51,646 nucleotides of DNA from Alphaproteobacteria bacterium (GTDB lineage: Bacteria > Pseudomonadota > Alphaproteobacteria > Caulobacterales > Hyphomonadaceae), in the NCBI GenBank assembly GCA_016125405.1, contig WGLW01000007.1, positions 1 to 51,646 of the forward strand. The letters are read 5' to 3'. The first letter of the stretch is position 1, and the number at the start of each line of letters is the position of its first letter. Of the stretch, positions 14,294 to 51,646 are shown in pieces. The notes below the pieces were generated by a model, which saw only the letters and a list, made by a program, of their open reading frames with translations, searched no databases and had not been told where the DNA came from. The translations under genes and the position numbers were made by a program.

Positions 14294-15472
14294 CTATTCG
14301 CCTTCCTTGTCGATAGCCGTGTCGCGCCCCTTGGAGTCGGCCCGCAGGATGCCCGGCAGCGCGTAGTTACCTTCATGGCAGGCGTACTCGTAGACGCGCT
14401 CCCTGGACTTGCGCAGCGGAATCTCGCCGGTCCAGGTTTGCGTGTAGTAGACGGGATCCTCGACCGAGAACTGGTAGTCGATCACCTCGTCCGAAACGCG
14501 GCGGAATTTCTCGACGACCCTGCCTTTCGGAGAGATCGGAAAAGCGCCGACCTGAAGCTGGGTAGGATTGAGATTGCGCGTCTCGACCACCAGCGTGTCG
14601 CCTTCCCAGTGCGCGATGGAATCGCCGAACCACTGCTTCACCGAGTCCGGAAGCGCTGCTTTCTTCGCCCCCGGCCGGTCGATGCGGATGATGCGCGCAT
14701 CGTGGTTCATCTCGACGTCGATCATCAGATTGTCCGGCGTCTGCACGATCTGGTAGTTGTTGTTGTACATCGCATTGTTGAGCGGCGGCCCCGCCTGGCT
14801 GCCGAACGAAGCAAGACAGCGCTCACCGACCGGGCGGATCTCCGGCCCCGTGTTGTTGATCTGGCGAACCGACGCCATGCGATTGCCGCGCAATGACCGC
14901 CCTTCCTTAGAGAAAGGCACCTGCCCGTTTTCCGGCGACGTGATCCAGGATGACCGCCACTCAGTGTTGACCTTGGCCCACTCCGAACCGGGATCGATCC
15001 AGAAGGCGTTGTAGCCAGCCTGGGTGTTGCCGTCGGTGAAGACGCCCGCATTCGGATCTGTGCGTTTCTGGCTGTCCTCGGCTGATTTGGTATAGCCCGC
15101 GCGCTCGGTAGCGCCGGCAACCTGTTCCGGCGGGATCACCAGCGTCTTGACGCCCACGCCCGCGTTGCGTCCGTTGCCGCGCGTCATCGTGGTAAGCGAC
15201 GCCGAGGACCACACGCCCTGAAGGTCCGGGTGGCCGTCGGCGGTGCGCGGCGGTTTGTAGTTCGGGTCCCAGGGTTTGAGGTCCTTGAAGAACGGTATCG
15301 GACTTTCGTAGGACCTCGTCCCGGCGATCGTTTTCGGGCCTTCGACCGGCGCACTGGAATCCGCAAAGCCCACGCCAGAGTTCGGCTGGATTTGCTGCGC
15401 GGTCGCTGGCGCGCCAGCGGCCAGAAGAAAACCCAGGGCCGCCACCGAGGCGGTCGCCATGAATTTGGTCAT
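14294..15472 (-). CDS. Secreted 'PDxQGVW...YACHEGNY' family protein, paralogue 1
   Basis: A 392-residue exported protein (signal MTKFMATASVAALGFLLAAG, AxA site ATA-QQ near residue 26). It shares a whole-length pattern with the genes at 36268, 49181 and 50250: PPRTxDGxPDxQGVW near the mature N-terminus, GERCL, MIDVEMNHDARIIRI, FGDSIAHWEGDTLVVET, a beta-rich C-terminal half, and the invariant end YEYACHEGNYALPGIL. The family is common in alphaproteobacteria and acidobacteria as I recall, but I know no function. The ATG at 15472 follows AGGGAACGG. The RusA-like gene lies upstream on the same strand. Confidence 0.85.
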   Translation of the reverse strand: MTKFMATASVAALGFLLAAGAPATAQQIQPNSGVGFADSSAPVEGPKTIAGTRSYESPIPFFKDLKPWDPNYKPPRTADGHPDLQGVWSSASLTTMTRGNGRNAGVGVKTLVIPPEQVAGATERAGYTKSAEDSQKRTDPNAGVFTDGNTQAGYNAFWIDPGSEWAKVNTEWRSSWITSPENGQVPFSKEGRSLRGNRMASVRQINNTGPEIRPVGERCLASFGSQAGPPLNNAMYNNNYQIVQTPDNLMIDVEMNHDARIIRIDRPGAKKAALPDSVKQWFGDSIAHWEGDTLVVETRNLNPTQLQVGAFPISPKGRVVEKFRRVSDEVIDYQFSVEDPVYYTQTWTGEIPLRKSRERVYEYACHEGNYALPGILRADSKGRDTAIDKEGE

Positions 15473-36267: not shown

Positions 36268-37407
36268 ATGACAACGAAACTCGGTGCACTGCTAATGGCT
36301 GCGACCGCCCTCGCGCTCGCCTCGCCGTGGGCGCAAGCCCAATCGATCGAGGGCAACCCAAACGCAACGGTGATTCCGAAGAACACGATCGCTGGCCCCG
36401 ACTACAAACCGCCGCGCACCGCCTGGGGCGTCGTGAACCTGCAGGGTCTCTGGACCAACGCCACACTGACCACGCTGGAACGCCCCAAGGAGTATGGCGA
36501 CAACCTGGTCATGTCGCCCGAGGAAGTCAGGAAAATAGAAGGGGCCGATGCCGCCGAAGTCGCCGACGGCCAGAAAGCCACCGATCCCAACGCCAAGGTC
36601 ACCGATCTGCCCGTCAATTGCGGACGCGGCTTCACCGGCGTCAACTGCGGGTACAACAGCTTCTGGGTCGACCCCGGCAAGACAGTCATGCGGATCAACG
36701 GCGAACCGCGCACATCCTTCCTGGTCGAGCCCAAGGATGGACGCCTGCCGCCACTGACGCCCGAAGGCCAGAAGGCGCGGGCCGCGATGTACGCCCAGTT
36801 TCGCAGCAACCGGCCCGGCATGGCGCGCGGCGACAATCCGGAATCGATGACGCTCGCCGAACGCTGCCTCAAGGATTTCGGCTCGTCCTCCGGTCCGCCG
36901 ATGATGCCCCTGCTCTACAACAACACCTATCAGATCGTGCAGACGCCCAATGACGTCATGATCCTCACCGAAATGGTGCACGACGCACGCATCGTGCACA
37001 TCAGCCAGGATCATCAACACACCCGCCCGGCAGTCATCGAACAATGGATGGGCGATGCGATCGGCTGGTATGAGGGCGATACGCTGGTGGTTGAGACCAC
37101 CAACTTCCGTCCCGGCCAGGGTTTCCGTGGGGCGCCGGAGAACTCGAAACTCATCGAGCGCTTCAAGCGGATCAACAACACGCAGATCGACTACTCGTTC
37201 GAGATCAACGCCCCGGAAACCTTCACCGCGCCGATCAAGGCGGAAATCGCCATGAACGCGACGAAGGGCCCGCTCTACGAGTATGCCTGCCACGAAGGCA
37301 ACTACGCCCTGCCGCACATCCTCGCCGGCAACCGCAAGGCGGATCGCGAGCGGGCCGAAGCCGAGGCCAAGGCGCCCAGGGCGAAAAAGACCGCGCTCAA
37401 GAACTGA
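36268..37407 (+). CDS. Secreted 'PDxQGVW...YACHEGNY' family protein, paralogue 2
   Basis: A 379-residue exported protein (signal MTTKLGALLMAATALALASP, cleavage near AQA-Q). It aligns along its length with the protein at 14294: YKPPRTAWGVVNLQGLW (a divergent form of the PDGxPDxQGVW block), GYNSFWVDPG, AERCLKDFGSSSGPP, YNNTYQIVQTPNDVMI, HDARIVHI, MGDAIGWYEGDTLVVETTNF and YEYACHEGNYALPHIL. It carries two extra cysteines (NCGRGFTGVNCGYN) that may form a disulfide. A basic Lys/Arg-rich tail ends the protein. The ATG at 36268 follows GGAGGG. Function unknown. Confidence 0.85.
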   Translation: MTTKLGALLMAATALALASPWAQAQSIEGNPNATVIPKNTIAGPDYKPPRTAWGVVNLQGLWTNATLTTLERPKEYGDNLVMSPEEVRKIEGADAAEVADGQKATDPNAKVTDLPVNCGRGFTGVNCGYNSFWVDPGKTVMRINGEPRTSFLVEPKDGRLPPLTPEGQKARAAMYAQFRSNRPGMARGDNPESMTLAERCLKDFGSSSGPPMMPLLYNNTYQIVQTPNDVMILTEMVHDARIVHISQDHQHTRPAVIEQWMGDAIGWYEGDTLVVETTNFRPGQGFRGAPENSKLIERFKRINNTQIDYSFEINAPETFTAPIKAEIAMNATKGPLYEYACHEGNYALPHILAGNRKADRERAEAEAKAPRAKKTALKN

Positions 37408-43110: not shown

Positions 43111-44415
43111 CTATTTCTGCAGGGCGTCGTAGATCCAGTTGCGGTTCTTGCGCTGGTATTCGCCCAGCAGCCTGCGGTCCTGGATCATCCACACCATGAA
43201 CAGGTCGTTCTTGGGATCATACCACCACTCGGTCCCGGCGATGCCGTTCCAGGAGAACGTGCCATTGCCCGGGCGCTGTTTGGTGTCGTCGATCACCAGC
43301 GACATGGCGAGACCGAAGCCCATCCCCTGTCCAGGGAAGAACAGACCGGCCTTGCGAATCTCCGGCGTCGTCTGATCGACCAGCATCTTGTCGACCGTCT
43401 CGGGCTTGAGGATCTGCACGCCCCTGTAGGTGCCGTGGTTGGCCAGCATCAGAACGAAACGGAGATAATCTTCCGCCGTCGACGATATGCCGCCGCCACC
43501 CTGCATGTAGGGCGTTACCTGCGTGTAGTCGTAATAGAGCGACACGCCGGAGATGCTCGCGTCCTTGTCCTGCGACTGGGCGAAGCGAGCGCTTTTCGAC
43601 GCCGGCTGGAAGAAGTCCGTATCGGTCATGCCGAGCGGACCGGTGACGCGTTCCTTCACGGCTTCGCGAAGGGTCTTGCCGGAAACCTGCTCGATCACGC
43701 CGCCCAGCACGTCGAGGCCATGCGAATAGTTCCAGGCCGTGCCCGGCTCCGCGATCAGCGGAAGTTTCGCAACCACCTGTTCCGCCCAGACCTTGGCCGG
43801 AAGGTCGGTGCGCATCTCGCCGCCCTCGGCCCAGATCTTGGAGATCGGCAGGTTGGGCTGGATGAAGGAATAGATCAGGCCCGACGTATGACTCATCAGC
43901 TGGCGAACCAGGATCGGCTTGGTCGCCGGAACTTCCGTCCCGTCCTTCTGGTAGACCTTCACGTTGGCGAACGCCGGCAGGTATTTCGACACCGGCGCGT
44001 CGAGATCGAGCTTGCCCTCCTCGACATAGGTCATCGCGGTGACGGCGACGATCGGCTTGGTCATCGAGAAGACACGGAAGATGGTCTCGTCCGACATGGG
44101 CGTCGTCTGGCCGGGACCCTGGACGCCAAATCCATGCGCATAGCCAACCTTGCCGTGCCGGCCGACCAGCAGGTACGCGCCCGGAATCTTGCCTGAAGCG
44201 ACGTCCGCATCGACCGCCGTGGTGATTTCGGAGAGTTTCGCGGGATCAAATCCCAGTGAGGCCGGATCGGCCATCACCAGCGACGAGGTGTTCGGATCGG
44301 CCACTTTGGCCTTTCCGCCCGCCATCGGTCCGTTCGCGCAGCCCGCCATCACGAGCGCCGCCGCAAGGGCGGTCAGGCCGATGCGCGCGGCCCCAAGCAT
44401 CCTGTCTGGCTTCAC
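43111..44415 (-). CDS. Beta-lactamase-fold serine hydrolase lipoprotein
   Basis: A 434-residue exported serine hydrolase of the class C beta-lactamase/EstB type. The signal peptide ends in lipobox VMAGC (Cys about residue 22). The active-site S-x-x-K is S117-M-T-K120 in FRVFSMTKPIVAV. The second motif is WNYSHG, with Y-S-H where beta-lactamases have Y-x-N. QLMSHTSGLIY is also typical. Such proteins are esterases or D-amino-acid peptidases more often than beta-lactamases. I choose the GTG at 44415, which follows AAGGGAGAC; the open frame upstream to 44808 covers the divergent cytochrome gene and is spurious. Confidence 0.88.
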   Translation of the reverse strand: MKPDRMLGAARIGLTALAAALVMAGCANGPMAGGKAKVADPNTSSLVMADPASLGFDPAKLSEITTAVDADVASGKIPGAYLLVGRHGKVGYAHGFGVQGPGQTTPMSDETIFRVFSMTKPIVAVTAMTYVEEGKLDLDAPVSKYLPAFANVKVYQKDGTEVPATKPILVRQLMSHTSGLIYSFIQPNLPISKIWAEGGEMRTDLPAKVWAEQVVAKLPLIAEPGTAWNYSHGLDVLGGVIEQVSGKTLREAVKERVTGPLGMTDTDFFQPASKSARFAQSQDKDASISGVSLYYDYTQVTPYMQGGGGISSTAEDYLRFVLMLANHGTYRGVQILKPETVDKMLVDQTTPEIRKAGLFFPGQGMGFGLAMSLVIDDTKQRPGNGTFSWNGIAGTEWWYDPKNDLFMVWMIQDRRLLGEYQRKNRNWIYDALQK

Positions 44416-44695: not shown

Positions 44696-45199
44696 ATGAT
44701 CCGAACCGCCACTGGCCTCGCGCTGGCCGCCCTGCTCGCCGCCTGTTCGCCGAACGCCGCCGCGCCGAACGCCTCGGCGCCGGCCGCCAGCGCCGACAAC
44801 GCTGACAAGACGCCCTACAAGATCGATTTCGAGATCAAGGACGTCATGGACAACGTTATTGACTTCGCCGCCGACAACATGTGGGCGAAACAGGGCTGGG
44901 ACGTTGATGAAAAGGGCGAGCACCCCCTGTTCCCGACAACCGAGGAAGAATGGGCCAACGCGGCCAAGGAAACGGCGACGCTCGCCGAAGCCGCCAATCT
45001 GCTGATGCTGCCCGGCCGCGCGGTCGACAACGACCGCTGGATCAAGCAGGCGACCAAGCTCCACGAGGCCGCGATGGAGGAATACCGGGCCATCAAGGCG
45101 CGCGACACGGAAAAGATGTTCTCCGTCGGCAGCGAGATCTTCATCGTCTGCCGGGACTGTCACGCCATGTACATCCTGGGGGAAGAACCGCCGAAATAG
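44696..45199 (+). CDS. Class II (c'-like) cytochrome c lipoprotein
   Basis: A 167-residue predicted lipoprotein (signal MIRTATGLALAALLAAC, Cys about 17) with an Ala/Pro/Asn linker and a four-helix-bundle-like mature part. The single heme motif C152-RD-C155-H156 lies near the C-terminus, the class II (cytochrome c') position, in EIFIVCRDCHAMYILGEE. A sixth ligand is not obvious; a high-spin heme is possible. Attached to a membrane, it could shuttle electrons. It immediately precedes the A1-B1 membrane-protein pair on the same strand (152 bp), which suggests a functional link. The ATG at 44696 follows GAGGGAAG. Confidence 0.87.
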   Translation: MIRTATGLALAALLAACSPNAAAPNASAPAASADNADKTPYKIDFEIKDVMDNVIDFAADNMWAKQGWDVDEKGEHPLFPTTEEEWANAAKETATLAEAANLLMLPGRAVDNDRWIKQATKLHEAAMEEYRAIKARDTEKMFSVGSEIFIVCRDCHAMYILGEEPPK

Positions 45200-45351
45200 C
45201 CCGTCCCGCCGGCGTGATCGCGCGAATGTGAGCGCCGTCCATCATGCGGCGATTGTGCCGCCTTGCCGGACTGTCAGGGCGCGCTAGTAATGCTTGAAAA
45301 ATGCCTTGGGGGGCGACTCGCCCGCCCTTGCGTCAGGGGAGCCGGCCAACA

Positions 45352-46110
45352 TTGTTCCACGAATTCTTCAGATGGCTCCAGGAGGATCTGGGCCGAACCG
45401 ACACGGCTGATTCCTGGAGCCTCCAGTTTCACGGTTCGCTGAACCTGTGGGGCCTCACCGAAGGCACGCACGTGATGACGCTGGTGCTCTTCGCCGGCAC
45501 GATCTTCCTCGTCGACCTTCGCCTCCTCGGCGTCGCCTTCAAGTCGGTGCCGTTCTCCAAGCTGAACGACAAGATCCTGCCGCTCACGGTCGCCGGCTTC
45601 ATCATCATGATCGTGACGGGCGTGATCCTCTTCCTCGCCAAGCCGCTGGACTACTACCACTCGGTCTGGTTCCGCACGAAGATGATCTTCCTGGTCATCG
45701 CGTCGCTCAACATCTTCTGGTTCCACTTCAAGGTTCAGAAGAACCAGGAAGAGTGGGACACGGCCGAAAACCCCCCGCGCGCGGCCCGTATATCGGCTGC
45801 GATCTCGATCACCAGCTGGACGATCATCATCCTGTGCGGACGTTTCATCGCCTACAACTGGTTCGACTGCGACAAGCTGGGCGCCTACGTCCAGGGCTAT
45901 GCCGAGCGGCACCAGGCGATCGGCGAGACCTTCTTCAAAGGCCTTTATTCCTACGGCGAATGCGCCTCGATGATGAAGGTGCCCGACGCGGTGCAAGCCG
46001 CGCAGGACGCGGCGCCCGCCGCCGAACCATCACCTCCCCCGGACACGCCGCCAGCGGAGGGGACACCCGCCGAGCCGACGCCAGCTGAAACTCAGGGCGA
46101 GGGGAACTGA
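45352..46110 (+). CDS. Integral membrane protein A1 of the duplicated A-B module
   Basis: A 252-residue inner-membrane protein with four main helices (within about 30-55, 73-95, 105-125 and 145-170). Conserved features shared with A2 (47605) are WGLTEGTHVMTLVLFAG, VDLRLLGVAFKSVPFSKLNDK, AKPLDYYHSVWFRTKMIFL, NIFWFHFKV and CGRFIAYNWFDC; histidines in EGTH, YYH and WFH could bind heme or quinone. The family resembles DUF6644/DUF2214-type proteins of unknown function, from memory. A Pro/Ala/Glu-rich tail follows. I choose TTG at 45352 because A2 starts at the equivalent codon; an ATG at 45301 is the alternative. B1 begins four bases after its stop. Confidence 0.75.
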   Translation: MFHEFFRWLQEDLGRTDTADSWSLQFHGSLNLWGLTEGTHVMTLVLFAGTIFLVDLRLLGVAFKSVPFSKLNDKILPLTVAGFIIMIVTGVILFLAKPLDYYHSVWFRTKMIFLVIASLNIFWFHFKVQKNQEEWDTAENPPRAARISAAISITSWTIIILCGRFIAYNWFDCDKLGAYVQGYAERHQAIGETFFKGLYSYGECASMMKVPDAVQAAQDAAPAAEPSPPPDTPPAEGTPAEPTPAETQGEGN

Positions 46111-46113
46111 TCC

Positions 46114-47376
46114 ATGAACTTCCACGCGATCTTTCCTCTCATGGATCCATGGGTGAAGAACCTCGCCTTCGCGTTCCCCGCGTGGATCGTGAAGCCGTCG
46201 ATCTGGATCTTCGCCGTCCTCGAGTCCTTCCACCTCCTCGGTCTCGCGATGCTGGGCGGATGCGCGCTGATCCTCGGCATGCGCATGATGGGCGTTCTGC
46301 TATCAAGCGTGCCGGTCCCCACCGTCGCGCGTACGCTGCGCCTCTGGTTCAACATTGGCGTCGCCCTGGTGCTGGGCACCGGCATCGTGATCGGCATGTC
46401 GAACGCCGAAAAGCTCTACGACAGTCCGGCCTTCCTCCTGAAAATGCTGTCAATGTTCGCCGCGCTGATCTTCAGCTACGGCGTCGTCACCTACTTCACC
46501 AACGAACAGGAAAACGCCGTTACGCCAGCAAAGATATGGGCGTCTGTCGCAGCCAATTTCTGGTTCCTCTGCGCTCTGGGCCTTCTGTTCGCAGGCCATT
46601 CGTTTACCGCACTCGCGCTGGTGCTGGTTGGCGGCGTCGCGGCGGCGGCCCCAAAGGGAACGTCGCGCTCGCCCGTGCTCTGGGTGCTGGGCGCGGGCAT
46701 TCTCGCCACGCTCGCGATGAACTTCCTGCCGATCCCGGTTTTCTACGACGCGCCGAAGCTCGACGCGGCGGGACAACCGATCCTCGGCGCGGAAGGCAAG
46801 CCCGTCGAGACCATGCACTTCTTCTGGGAGTTCCTGAAGCACGACACCAAGCTGGGCATGGCCGGCTTCATAACCGTGATTCTGTCCGAGGCTCTGCGCG
46901 CCGTCACGATGATGCGGATCTGGCGCTCGGAAACGCAGACGGAAGCGGCGTCGGTGACTTTCAGCTTCGCGACTGCGCTCTGGGTTGCGTCGGTATGGGT
47001 GTTCGCCTTCTCCACCGGCGTGAACCCCGGCACGTTCCACCTCGTCTGCGCCCTCTTCCTGGTCGCGATGGGCATCGGCGGCTTCCGCACCCGCGTGACG
47101 CTCGGCGCCGCCGTGGCCACGCTCGTGGTCGCCGTGGCGATCGTCACCTACGGCTTCTTCCCGGTTCAGGAGGACTACGATACCTTCATGTCCATCAACA
47201 AATGGGCCATGCGGGTGATCGCTGTGGTGCTGGTTGCCGTGCTCGGCTGGGAAATGTTCAGCGCCAACAGCAAAGCCAACAAGGACGCGCCATCGGTCGT
47301 CAAGCTGGTCGGCCTGTTCTCACTCCTTGCCTGGATCACGGTCGCAGCGGGCGGGCGGTGGATCGGCCTCAGCTGA
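46114..47376 (+). CDS. Integral membrane protein B1 of the duplicated A-B module
   Basis: A 420-residue membrane protein with about ten to eleven helices. The N-terminal part (FAVLESFHLLGLAMLGGCALILGMRMMGV, then GVALVLGTGIVIGMSNAEKLYDSPAFLLKML) aligns with protein A, and the C-terminus AWITVAAGGRWIGLS matches A's last helix, so A and B look like ancient duplicates. NPGTFHLV supplies another conserved His. Compared with B2 it carries about 135 extra residues (about 145-285) with further helices and a polar loop containing VETMHFFWEFLKHDTKLGM. It is coupled to A1 by a 3-bp gap. Function unknown; membrane electron transfer or quinone/heme binding is inferred. Confidence 0.8.
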   Translation: MNFHAIFPLMDPWVKNLAFAFPAWIVKPSIWIFAVLESFHLLGLAMLGGCALILGMRMMGVLLSSVPVPTVARTLRLWFNIGVALVLGTGIVIGMSNAEKLYDSPAFLLKMLSMFAALIFSYGVVTYFTNEQENAVTPAKIWASVAANFWFLCALGLLFAGHSFTALALVLVGGVAAAAPKGTSRSPVLWVLGAGILATLAMNFLPIPVFYDAPKLDAAGQPILGAEGKPVETMHFFWEFLKHDTKLGMAGFITVILSEALRAVTMMRIWRSETQTEAASVTFSFATALWVASVWVFAFSTGVNPGTFHLVCALFLVAMGIGGFRTRVTLGAAVATLVVAVAIVTYGFFPVQEDYDTFMSINKWAMRVIAVVLVAVLGWEMFSANSKANKDAPSVVKLVGLFSLLAWITVAAGGRWIGLS

Positions 47377-47403
47377 TCCAGCCATAGCGCGAAAGCTACT
47401 CAC

Positions 47404-47436
47404 AAAAGCCCCGGCGTCCTGTGCGCCGGGGCTTTT
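47404..47436 (+). terminator. Intrinsic terminator between the two A-B modules
   Basis: A perfect 13-bp stem (AAAAGCCCCGGCG at 47404-47416, CGCCGGGGCTTTT at 47424-47436) with a 7-base loop, followed by CGTTT. It lies 27 bp after the B1 stop and should end the cytochrome-A1-B1 transcript, making A2-B2 a separate unit. Confidence 0.9.
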
Positions 47437-47470
47437 CGTTTCGACCGATTGGTCAAAATACTTTGCATTC

Positions 47471-47500
47471 CGTGATCCGCCGTGATCGGCCGTGATCAGC
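47471..47500. repeat. Three tandem 10-bp repeats, CGTGATCNGC
   Basis: CGTGATCCGC, CGTGATCGGC and CGTGATCAGC follow one another without gaps; only the eighth base varies. A 10-bp period places each copy on the same face of the helix, suggesting a cooperative protein-binding array. It sits between the B1 terminator and the A2 gene, about 105 bp before the A2 start. Confidence 0.7.
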
Positions 47501-47504
47501 CGGT

Positions 47505-47518
47505 TTGATCTAGGCCAA
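47505..47518 (+). promoter_or_regulatory. Partial FNR/FixK-like box upstream of A2-B2
   Basis: TTGAT-CTAG-GCCAA matches the FNR/FixK consensus TTGAT-N4-ATCAA perfectly in the left half and in three of five positions in the right half. It ends 86 bp before the A2 start codon, a reasonable distance for an activator site. Such control would fit an oxygen-responsive redox module; the weak right half makes this tentative. Confidence 0.3.
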
Positions 47519-47604
47519 ATCGCAGGCGGCTTTCGCAACGACTCTCAGCCGGAAACAGCCGTGCGCAAGGACGCGCGGGGCGCGGGCAGGAGAGGAATAT
47601 CCGG

Positions 47605-48270
47605 GTGCTTCACGATTTTTTCCGATGGATTCAGGAAACGCTGGGAGCAACCGCCAGCGCCGAATCCTGGAGCCAGCAATTTCGCGGCTCGCTTAATCTC
47701 TGGGGCATCACCGAAGGCACGCACGTCTTGACGCTGATGGTGTTTGCCGGATCGATCTGGCTCGTCGATCTTCGCCTGATGGGCGTCGCCTTCAAGTCAA
47801 CGCCCTTCTCGAAGCTCAACGACAAGGTCCTGCCCTATACGGTTGTCTCCTTCGCCGTCCTGATCGTGACCGGCATTGCCCTCTTCCTCGCCAAGCCCGT
47901 GGACTATTATCATAACGTCTGGTTCCGGGCGAAAATGATCTTCCTGATCATCGCGGCGCTCAACATCTTCTGGTTCCACGTCAAGGTGCAGAAGAACGAG
48001 GCCGAATGGGACGAGGCGGACAAGCCGCCGACCAGTGCGCGCCTCTCGGGGGCGATCTCTCTTTCCTCCTGGGTGATCGTGATCATCCTTGGACGGTTCA
48101 TCGCATACAACTGGTATGATTGCGGCAAGCCCTTGCCAGGCTTTGTGAACTGGTTCGCGGAATGCGCTTCCACCCCCTCCGGCATCGTCACAGCGGATGC
48201 GGCCCCGCCACTCGTCTTTCCCGCTTCTGGCGCCGAATCCTCCACATCCCAACTTGCTCAGGGGCGCTGA
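47605..48270 (+). CDS. Integral membrane protein A2 of the duplicated A-B module
   Basis: A 221-residue paralogue of A1, starting at GTG 47605 after GGAGAGGAA (VLHDFFRWIQETLG). Its four helices and conserved motifs match A1: WGITEGTHVLTLMVFAG, VDLRLMGVAFKSTPFSKLNDK, AKPVDYYHNVWFRAKMIFL, NIFWFHVKV and LGRFIAYNWYDC. All three histidines are kept. It lacks the long Pro/Ala-rich tail of A1. B2 follows three bases after its stop. Upstream it has its own presumed promoter region with a 10-bp repeat array. Function unknown, as for A1. Confidence 0.8.
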   Translation: MLHDFFRWIQETLGATASAESWSQQFRGSLNLWGITEGTHVLTLMVFAGSIWLVDLRLMGVAFKSTPFSKLNDKVLPYTVVSFAVLIVTGIALFLAKPVDYYHNVWFRAKMIFLIIAALNIFWFHVKVQKNEAEWDEADKPPTSARLSGAISLSSWVIVIILGRFIAYNWYDCGKPLPGFVNWFAECASTPSGIVTADAAPPLVFPASGAESSTSQLAQGR

Positions 48271-48273
48271 ACC

Positions 48274-49104
48274 ATGGATTTCCATGCCCTCTTTCCGCAA
48301 ATGCAGGATTCGGTCGCGAGCCTGCCGAACGTATTCCCGGCCTCGCTGCTGAAGAACACCCAATGGGGATTTGCGGCCGTCGAAGCCGTCCATCTCCTCG
48401 CACTCGGCCTGCTTGGCGGATGCGTGCTCTTTTTGAACCTCCGCCTCCTGGGCGTCGGCGTCACCAGCGAAACGCCGGCAGGCGTCGAACGTCAGCTGCG
48501 TCCCTGGCTCTATCTTGGCGTGGCGGGCGTGCTGCTGAGCGGCGTTCTCATCGGCATGCTTAACCCCGAAAAACTGTTCACCAGTCCTGCCTTCTTCGCG
48601 AAAATGATCGCGATGGTCGCGGCGCTGATCTTCAGCTTCGGCGTCACGAACGCCGTTGCAAGCTCGCAAGGGCGCGTGTCACCCGGCGTGATGGCCGCAG
48701 CGATTGCAGCGTTCGCGCTGTGGCTTTGGTCAATGGGCGTCTTTTCCCTCTCATCGGGAACCAACCCCGGCACATTCCATCTGGTCGTCGCCGGATACGT
48801 GATCCTGTTCGCCTTCGGACAAAGAACGCGAATCCTCGCCCTGATCGCGTCCCTGGGCCTTATGCTTGCGGACCTCGTCATCACCTACGGCGTTATCGGT
48901 CTCGACCGCGACTACGACGGGTTCATGTCGACCACCAAACTCTTCGTCGAGATCGCGGCGCTGGTTCTGGTGGCGTTGCTTGGCTTCGAGATCGCTACGG
49001 GCAAGCAGGCCGATACAGGCAAACCCGCCAAACTGATCGCGGTCTTCTCGATCCTGAGCTGGGTGACCGTGGCGGCGGCCGGGCGGTGGATCGGACTGAG
49101 CTGA
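48274..49104 (+). CDS. Integral membrane protein B2 of the duplicated A-B module
   Basis: A 276-residue paralogue of B1 with about eight helices. It begins MDFHALFPQMQDSVASL (compare MNFHAIFPLMDPWVKNL in B1), keeps VEAVHLLALGLLGGCVLFLNLRLLGVG, NPEKLFTSPAFFAKM, GTNPGTFHLVVAG, DYDGFMSTTKLF and the terminal SWVTVAAAGRWIGLS. It lacks the about 135-residue middle segment of B1 cleanly, without loss of frame, so it is a compact version rather than a broken gene. Coupled to A2 by a 3-bp gap. Function unknown. Confidence 0.8.
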   Translation: MDFHALFPQMQDSVASLPNVFPASLLKNTQWGFAAVEAVHLLALGLLGGCVLFLNLRLLGVGVTSETPAGVERQLRPWLYLGVAGVLLSGVLIGMLNPEKLFTSPAFFAKMIAMVAALIFSFGVTNAVASSQGRVSPGVMAAAIAAFALWLWSMGVFSLSSGTNPGTFHLVVAGYVILFAFGQRTRILALIASLGLMLADLVITYGVIGLDRDYDGFMSTTKLFVEIAALVLVALLGFEIATGKQADTGKPAKLIAVFSILSWVTVAAAGRWIGLS

Positions 49105-50249: not shown

Positions 50250-51290
50250 CTATTCCCCGTCGGCGTTGACGACCGTGTGTATGCCCTTCCGGTCGTCTGC
50301 CCGGGCGCCCGCGAGGATGCCGGGCAGCGAGTAATTGCCCTCATGGCAGGCGTATTCGTAGACCGGCCCGTCCGAACGGCGCAGCGGCATCTCCGCCTTC
50401 CACACCTGCGTGAAGATCTTGGGATCGTCGACCTGGAACTGGTAGAGGATTTCGTCCGGTCCAACCCGCGTGAAACGCTCGGTGATCTTGGCGTCCTCGG
50501 AAATGTAGAAGGTGACGTTGGTGTTGGTTCGCAGGCTCTCCTGCGGATGCATGCTGACGGTTTCGACCACCAGCGTGTCGCCATCCCACCAGCCGATGGA
50601 ATCGCCCATCCAGCGCCGCATCGCCGGCGGCTGGTGCTTGCCGCCTATCCTTATGATGCGTGCGTCGTGGTTCATCTCGACGTCGATCATCAGCGCGTTC
50701 TTCGTCTGAACGAACTGGTACTGGTTGTTGTAGAGCACGTTGATCATCGGCGGCCCGGCGCTCGAGCCGTAGCCAACAACGCAACGTTCGCCCAGCGGAC
50801 GAATTTCCGGGCCGTCAAACGTCGTCCGGCGGCGCATCAGATCGTCCTGATAGATTTTCCGGCCCGCCGCGCTGTAGGGAATTTTCCCGTCCGGCGGATC
50901 GACCACCCACGATGTCCTGTATTCGCCGTTGACGACCCCGATTGTGGTGCCGGCATCGATATAGACATTGTTGTAGCCGCCAACGCCGCGTCCGGCAGGC
51001 GGCGCGCCGCTGTTGGGGTCGGTCCGCATACGGCCGGCGGCGGTCCGCTCCGCCGTGCGCCTGGCGATCGCATCCGCCTGGTCCTTCGTGATGGTCGGAC
51101 CCTTGAACTGCGACGGGCGCTCGAGCGTTGTCAGTGACCCATTGGTCCAGACGCCCTGAAAATCCGGATGGCCATCGGGCGTGCGTGGCGGCTCATAAGC
51201 TGCGGCCGCCTGCGCAACGGCCGGTCCGGCGGCGCACGCCAGCGCGGCGGCCAGCATTGTTGATACGATCAGGGCGCGTGCGGACATCAT
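50250..51290 (-). CDS. Secreted 'PDxQGVW...YACHEGNY' family protein, paralogue 4
   Basis: A 346-residue exported protein (signal MMSARALIVSTMLAAALACA, cleavage near AVA-Q). It shows the most complete family pattern: YEPPRTPDGHPDFQGVWTN, GYNNVYIDAG, GERCVVGYGSSAGPP, YNNQYQFVQTKNALMIDVEM, NHDARIIRIGG, MGDSIGWWDGDTLVVETV, YQFQVDDPKIFTQVWKAE and YEYACHEGNYSLPGIL. The ATG at 51290 is preceded by GGAGGAG. It is the upstream gene of a pair with paralogue 3. A beta-propeller or beta-sandwich fold is guessed from the repeated WxGDTLVVET-like strands; function unknown. Confidence 0.85.
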   Translation of the reverse strand: MMSARALIVSTMLAAALACAAGPAVAQAAAAYEPPRTPDGHPDFQGVWTNGSLTTLERPSQFKGPTITKDQADAIARRTAERTAAGRMRTDPNSGAPPAGRGVGGYNNVYIDAGTTIGVVNGEYRTSWVVDPPDGKIPYSAAGRKIYQDDLMRRRTTFDGPEIRPLGERCVVGYGSSAGPPMINVLYNNQYQFVQTKNALMIDVEMNHDARIIRIGGKHQPPAMRRWMGDSIGWWDGDTLVVETVSMHPQESLRTNTNVTFYISEDAKITERFTRVGPDEILYQFQVDDPKIFTQVWKAEMPLRRSDGPVYEYACHEGNYSLPGILAGARADDRKGIHTVVNADGE

Positions 51291-51498: not shown

Positions 51499-51646
51499 TC
51501 AGCTCGACGTCGCGCTGCACTTTTCTTCCTGACCGCCTTCGGAGGAGTCGGCGCCATCGCGCGGCGCGCCGGTTCCCGAGGAGCCCACGAACAGTTTGCA
51601 GCCGTTCGGGAAGGTGATGTCACGGCCGTTGGCCTTGCAGGTGCGG
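51499..51646 (-). CDS. 3' end of a cysteine-containing protein gene (5' end outside the window)
   Basis: The last 48 codons of a minus-strand gene are visible, reading RTCKANGRDITFPNGCKLF, then a Gly/Ser/Asp/Glu-rich stretch and EKCSATSS before TGA at 51499-51501. Three cysteines, two of them flanking a short RDITFPNG turn, suggest a small disulfide-stabilised exported protein. The family is not recognised and the start lies beyond the window. Support for coding comes from the terminator just downstream and the sensible composition. Confidence 0.6.
   Translation of the reverse strand, partial: RTCKANGRDITFPNGCKLFVGSSGTGAPRDGADSSEGGQEEKCSATSS

Follow-up and report, generated by a model that had tools for sequence, protein, structure and literature searches.

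DUF6644 membrane protein pairs related to CopD, and their candidate secreted partner DUF6152, in Hyphomonadaceae and across the phylum

The membrane protein gene pairs A1-B1 and A2-B2 lie in tandem near one end of a contig from an alphaproteobacterium of the Hyphomonadaceae (WGLW01000007.1 of assembly GCA_016125405.1). This entire contig, 51,646 bases from a 3.86-Mb genome, is the window of our analysis. All four proteins belong to DUF6644 (PF20349), a family that we place, by sequence comparison, in the CopD superfamily of membrane proteins, with a secreted partner, DUF6152 (PF19649), that is new and differs from CopC. Our preferred reading, held at a probability of about 45%, is that A and B supply the membrane side of a two-compartment, CopC-CopD-like module for periplasmic metal, probably copper, in which DUF6152 is the other half. 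The association of the two families points to undescribed copper or electron handling at the cell membrane. It makes one testable unit of two families of unknown function, present in 29 (DUF6644) and 42 (DUF6152) of 398 sampled genomes, and the small pairs and the fusion that occur in nature offer a test ground for CopD-type copper movement and for the haem or metal content of the fold. A literature search found no paper naming either family, and both are absent from the main text of a paper on N-terminal-histidine metalloproteins (PMC12537917), the supplements of which were outside the search.

The features of the locus are as follows; 'DFQGVW' is our own label for a protein family.

43111-44400, minus strand: serine hydrolase (PF00144, 226 bits), a recurrent divergent neighbour
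44696-45199, plus strand: cytochrome c lipoprotein gene, c'-type (class II) as judged by sequence, with a lipobox-like LAAC and a single CRDCH near the C-terminus
45352-46110, plus strand: A1, DUF6644 membrane protein, first copy; TTG start; PF20349 42.6 bits
46114-47376, plus strand: B1, DUF6644 membrane protein, first copy, with an insert; PF20349 67 bits
46549-46968, plus strand: the B1 insert, 140 residues, found by alignment in B1 only among nine B proteins
47402-47439, plus strand: terminator hairpin between A1-B1 and A2-B2, followed by a short T-rich stretch
47605-48270, plus strand: A2, DUF6644 membrane protein; GTG start; PF20349 49.3 bits; four long predicted helices
48274-49104, plus strand: B2, DUF6644 membrane protein; PF20349 69.3 bits; eight long predicted helices
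49181-50185, minus strand: secreted 'DFQGVW' family protein, of a recurrent family without a Pfam match
50250-51257, minus strand: second secreted 'DFQGVW' protein, the final gene ahead of the contig end (51646)

The preliminary description of this DNA had reported the order cytochrome, A1-B1, terminator, A2-B2, with 3 bp between A and B in each pair, and both the order and the gaps are confirmed. The uncharacterised, tandem two-gene membrane module that it proposed is borne out as well, and now has a family name: all four proteins exceed the curated DUF6644 cut-off of 27 bits, and the six matches to this family in the genome (E ≤0.001) all fall within A1, B1, A2 and B2. The relationship extends across the pair, with 29% identity between A2 and B2 (E 2e-5). 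The AlphaFold model of A2 has four long helices, with a mean predicted local distance difference test score (pLDDT) of 62.9, and that of B2 has eight (mean pLDDT 86.2, predicted TM-score 0.81). B is probably two four-helix units on one chain. The pairing is general in a same-family set that comprises the window and 34 regions from 28 other DUF6644 genomes, among 105 genomes of the taxonomic family. A and B are adjacent in 30 of these 35 regions, which hold 31 pairs; the gap is exactly 3 bp in 14 of the 31, and gaps below zero depend on the longest possible start being used.

The general partner of DUF6644 is DUF6152, a small family with a Pfam model of 98 positions. Every one of the 29 DUF6644 genomes in the phylum sample also holds DUF6152, against 13 of the 369 others (Fisher 2.6e-34), and all 42 DUF6152 genomes score above the cut-off for that family. 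This p value overstates the association, since related genomes are not independent, although 12 taxonomic families are represented nonetheless. In 26 of the 29 genomes the two genes share a contig and lie within 5 kb of each other, and in 18 they are less than 200 bp apart; of the remaining three, G393 has them 31 kb apart and G411 on other contigs, and the third is the genome of the window. Twenty phylum-level regions were fetched, out of 28 further DUF6644 genomes, and in 18 of them DUF6152 adjoins DUF6644 or lies a few genes away (it is missing from L135 and L138). Ten of the 20 contain DUF6152 and DUF6644 only, among the families searched, and have no cytochrome.

Within the same-family set DUF6152 is present in 24 of 35 regions and in 21 of the 30 paired ones. 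It is missing from nine paired regions, five of which, the window among them, are cut by a contig end on that side (the other four are L047, L053, L056 and L057). The window ends at 51646, exactly where its relatives have DUF6152. Judged by gene order, contig C9 of the same genome is the likely continuation, as it ends in the expected follow-on order of two genes, a 'DFQGVW' protein and DUF6152; the two genes resemble, from the start of their sequences, the ABC and FtsX-like genes of the relatives. A DUF6152 gene abuts the contig end on both C9 and C38 of this genome (L159 and L158).

Conserved residues were taken from 28 phylum-level DUF6644 members picked by their Pfam match alone, with no motif selection. 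H40, G90 and K110 are present in 28/28, R57 and F107 in 27/28, and W156 and Gly163 in all 27 members that have a residue at the position. H40, R57, G90 and K110 are also invariant in 77 A and B proteins (42/42 A and 35/35 B), so that the conserved membrane histidine noticed earlier holds in both sets. H169, the histidine of the second half of B, is found in 23 of 35 and hence is not invariant. Judged by topology and helix limits, three features would sit close to one end of the helix bundle, the periplasmic one: H40, K110 and the terminal Gly-Arg.

DUF6152 has a histidine pattern of its own. The pattern HH...[N/P]PH fits 44 of 46 profile hits, with Ala directly before HH in 44/44, and the remaining two read AAA-HH...GPH. 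A search pattern demanded HH and PH, and its counts of 43/43 are conditional on that pattern; Ala-HH and PH are likewise invariant in a 20-row alignment whose rows were hand-picked from profile hits without use of a motif. After a crude signal call, AxA followed by HH was found in 17/17 DUF6152 proteins, 0/58 other proteins and 0/22 'DFQGVW' proteins. In two of the 58 other control proteins the crude signal site is followed by one His. Mature DUF6152 thus probably begins with His-His after predicted signal cleavage.

The relationship of DUF6644 to known membrane proteins comes from a motif-free profile comparison made with hhalign. DUF6644 matches CopD at 94%, E 1.1e-7 over 131 columns (reverse 90%, 1.4e-6) and HemJ at 91%, E 1.3e-6 (reverse 83%, 9.4e-6), and these two are the nearest characterised relatives found by the profile-profile search of A and B that had been suggested. 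It also matches DUF2214 at 82%, E 1.1e-5, the weaker direction giving 28%, E 6.4e-4. The RND, FtsX-type and HupE controls in the same comparison gave E 0.12 or worse. The conserved His and Lys of DUF6644 are in register in the printed CopD and HemJ alignments. This comparison replaced earlier ones made from motif-picked or thin alignments, which were weak and direction-dependent: HemJ at E 9e-5 to 0.094, DUF2214 at 3e-5 to 0.12 and CopD, with a one-sequence profile, at 6e-4 to 0.41, with a control of HemJ against HupE that reached E 0.023.

One genome joins the two halves in a single frame. At L153:8469-10178 (minus strand) a frame of 570 residues is composed of a signal sequence, DUF6152 (8-103), a 'DFQGVW' domain (221-391) and DUF6644 (418-569), and is followed by a second DUF6644 gene. 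The signal peptide leads into the HH start of the DUF6152 part. The DUF6644 part reaches 19.1 bits with Pfam, under the cut-off of 27, and E 1.6e-33 with our own profile. In the same genus, L151:9175-10320 (minus strand) fuses DUF6152 with a 'DFQGVW' domain and nothing more. The gene caller gave no genes in L139, L151, L153 or L141, and the first three were read as open reading frames. The L153 fusion suggests that DUF6152, 'DFQGVW' and DUF6644 act together. It also sets the N-side of the DUF6644 bundle, H40 with it, on the periplasmic side, and the loop charges agree (K+R per sequence 2.55 in loop 1, 0.88 in loop 2 and 3.33 in loop 3, with 1.55 at the N-terminus and 1.90 at the C-terminus).

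How might such a module work? Secreted DUF6152, with His-His after cleavage and the conserved Pro-His, would capture a metal ion, most probably copper, at a histidine-brace-like site. The ion would then be exchanged with the four-helix DUF6644 units of CopD/HemJ type. This exchange, and any direction that it has, would run via the His of transmembrane helix 1 (TM1), the Lys of TM3 and the Gly-Arg of TM4 near the periplasmic face. A, with one unit, and B, with two, are probably paired subunits. The c'-type cytochrome lipoprotein, the secreted 'DFQGVW' proteins and sometimes HupE/UreJ-2 would be additions made in the lineage of the window.

Capture of a metal, likely copper, is favoured because the layout is CopC-CopD-like and because copper is bound by other proteins with an N-terminal histidine that stand next to permeases or are fused to them (PMC8424229, PMC12537917). 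As in CopC-CopD and YcnJ, which are copper importers, a secreted protein with N-terminal and internal His accompanies a multi-helix membrane protein that has a conserved His, either as its neighbour or in a fusion. In Bacillus subtilis YcnJ both the CopC copper site and a CopD membrane histidine are described as required under copper starvation (PMC13344008). By eye, 15 of 16 CopC rows have His right after the likely signal, and the strict pattern fits six of 16. The arrangement differs from CopC-CopD in that DUF6644 occurs as a four-helix and an eight-helix pair, as two four-helix genes, or alone, and from YcnJ in that the 'DFQGVW' domain intervenes in the DUF6152-DUF6644 fusion. HemJ (UPF0093), a protoporphyrinogen oxidase, shares the TM1 His and TM3 Lys with DUF6644. 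Nevertheless A1 and A2, at 16 and 15.5 bits, fall far under the HemJ cut-off of 34.2 bits, B1 and B2 have no row at all, and the genome has a separate HemJ. The uncharacterised DUF2214 (PF09980) has a stretch HN..F.AK in common with DUF6644; A2 matches it at 25.6 bits, E 1.3e-5, below the cut-off of 34.1 bits. A further likeness is to the Anglerases (Ang-1/Ang-2) with HupE/UreJ-2 and to YcnI (DUF1775), in which N-terminal-His secreted copper proteins go with a membrane permease (PMC12537917, PMC8424229), although these families differ from DUF6152 and DUF6644. HupE/UreJ-2 genes lie within some DUF6644 loci. The HupE/UreJ-2 proteins of L062-L064 and L069-L075 read A-HDV in 10/10 printed, and possibly have an N-terminal histidine after a signal-like start with no separate domain.

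Several observations weigh against this reading. The Pfam CopD model (PF05425) gave no match to A1, B1, A2 or B2 at E up to 1, and DUF6152 was rejected as a CopC homologue, the profile comparison giving E 0.34. The CopD and HemJ profiles match each other at E 0.03 only, while the Pfam CopD model does match many HemJ genes. A profile search of the PDB with DUF6152 found nothing below E 0.08, and Foldseek found nothing for the A and B models in the PDB at E ≤0.001. As ligands for copper, Lys and Arg are poor, and they suit haem propionates equally well. The triple fusion comes from one genome, and of the 29 DUF6644 genomes 21 pass the curated cut-off and eight have matches only beneath it. The paired same-family regions L050, L052 and L058 lack DUF6152 with DNA on both sides, and L049 with DNA on one side. 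A fourth DUF6152 of the window's genome (C16, L161), away from DUF6644, has neither HH nor the NPH motif. This genome already has three neighbouring CopC-CopD gene pairs (G000 contigs C16, C23 and C45), its CopC genes being on contigs other than that of the window. Pfam scans of neighbours, which at the phylum level covered six of the 20 regions, gave no match to a copper-named family, and the quinoprotein and esterase neighbours suit catabolism.

The cytochrome upstream of A1 is the neighbour to which the preliminary description had pointed, together with the membrane histidines. Its call of a heme lipoprotein agrees with the LAAC and CRDCH of the product. The class II assignment stands at the level of the family, with scores that are weak per protein: the window cytochrome alone has no Pfam cytochrome match, PF01322 included (E up to 1), a profile of 25 relatives matches cytochrome c' structures at E 1.4e-4, 23 of the 25 reach PF01322 with E ≤1, the best of them at 9e-5, and one phylum-level relative scores 20.6 bits against a cut-off of 26.5. 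Both Cys and the His of CxxCH are invariant in the 25 aligned relatives. The cytochrome is upstream of A-B on the same strand in 27 of the 30 paired same-family regions (L049, L052 and L058 are without it), and the objection that it might fail to co-occur with A-B in other genomes therefore falls. In 17 of the 27 it is 36-201 bp from A, and in the other 10 about 1.3 kb, with a HupE/UreJ-2 gene and another small protein between. In the regions fetched from this family the cytochrome is thus seen oftener than DUF6152 (27/30 against 21/30 paired regions). Beyond the family the cytochrome is rare, this cytochrome family being present in two of the 20 phylum-level regions (L136 and L139), and the general partner is DUF6152.

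Is the module one for metal, or one for electrons? The membrane redox or quinone-linked role proposed before is kept as a serious rival, one that is possible if somewhat unlikely. DUF6644 would bind haem b via H40, and electrons would pass between the quinone pool and periplasmic carriers (the c'-type cytochrome, a quinoprotein-cytochrome, or the metal of DUF6152). The match to HemJ with His and Lys in register speaks for it, as do the frequency of the cytochrome in the window's family, the quinoprotein/cytochrome c fusion genes near same-family loci and the fitness of Lys and Arg for haem. HemJ is reportedly termed a b-type haem protein in the title of a paper. Against this, a passage of a 2020 review gives the HemJ cofactors as unknown (PMC7242693). 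There is just one invariant histidine per DUF6644 unit, in half of the phylum-level regions the families searched come down to DUF6152 and DUF6644, with no cytochrome, and the best match to an NrfD/PsrC-type quinone or haem subunit fold, 2vpw_C, was not significant (E 0.19, TM-score 0.24). The CopD and HemJ relatives fit copper at least as well. A union of the two ideas, in which DUF6152 would be a new histidine-brace copper protein class and DUF6644 its haem-b-bearing CopD/HemJ-type partner, strikes us as decidedly unlikely. Periplasmic copper would here be reduced or oxidised by membrane electrons, in the window's lineage through the c'-type cytochrome, and import and electron transfer would be one device.

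It is very unlikely that DUF6152 is a histidine-brace oxidase or oxygenase of a periplasmic catabolic cluster, with DUF6644 and the cytochrome feeding or draining electrons. Oxygenases are described among possible histidine-brace copper sites (PMC10952591), and esterases of three Pfam families, quinoproteins (in four of the 20 phylum-level regions) and TonB receptors recur near the larger clusters; the regions with only the pair among the families searched, the small size of DUF6152 and the PDB profile search, in which no enzyme relationship was detected, argue the other way. We see just as little chance that the module is an assembly or homeostasis factor that serves either a metal other than copper (Zn, Ni) or secreted metalloenzymes, working by the same principle of capture. 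One gene run, in L134, leads from DUF6644 into ZnuA and ABC-transporter genes and was counted for this reading as well as for the preferred one, and HupE/UreJ-2 are described as nickel permeases (PMC12537917). However, zinc genes were met in one region only, within the coverage of neighbour scans given above, and the N-terminal-His domains on HupE/UreJ-2 are described as binding Cu best of the metals in vitro (PMC12537917). The CopC-CopD-like reading remains the one that we prefer.

The window is alone among the 35 same-family regions in having two A-B pairs. The hairpin at 47402-47439 has a folding energy of -27 kcal/mol (z -5.4), with no equally stable sequence in 200 shuffles, and a separate listing places a terminator-like site at 47416. 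A1 and A2 are 69% identical across 186 columns, and B1 and B2 match in two blocks of 132 columns with 49% and 45% identity. A2 clusters with its L061 orthologue (tree support 100/99), A1 lies outside that group and the B1 branch is long, and a recent duplication of the pair is therefore ruled out. The 140-residue insert of B1 is missing from the other eight aligned B proteins. It has hydrophobic stretches by eye and no clear A/B relative; a 154-residue piece matches other A/B proteins at E 0.02 at best, which leaves an extra DUF6644 unit unsupported.

Four proteins of the window are in the 'DFQGVW' family, the further two being at 14294-15472 (minus strand) and 36295-37407 (plus strand). The family is present in 28 of 35 same-family regions, other genomes have as many as six copies around the A-B locus, and 14 aligned members have two invariant cysteines. 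Pfam and NCBIfam scans of the two proteins that follow B2 were empty, and a PDB profile search with the family gave nothing useful. The serine hydrolase family (PF00144) is found in 25 of the 35 regions. In L134:5220-12249 a single run holds DUF6152, 'DFQGVW', an alpha/beta hydrolase, two DUF6644 genes and then DUF6162, ZnuA and ABC-transporter genes. In L139:2688-14379 DUF6152, two 'DFQGVW', two DUF6644 and a cytochrome c' gene are all on one strand, with TonB receptors flanking.

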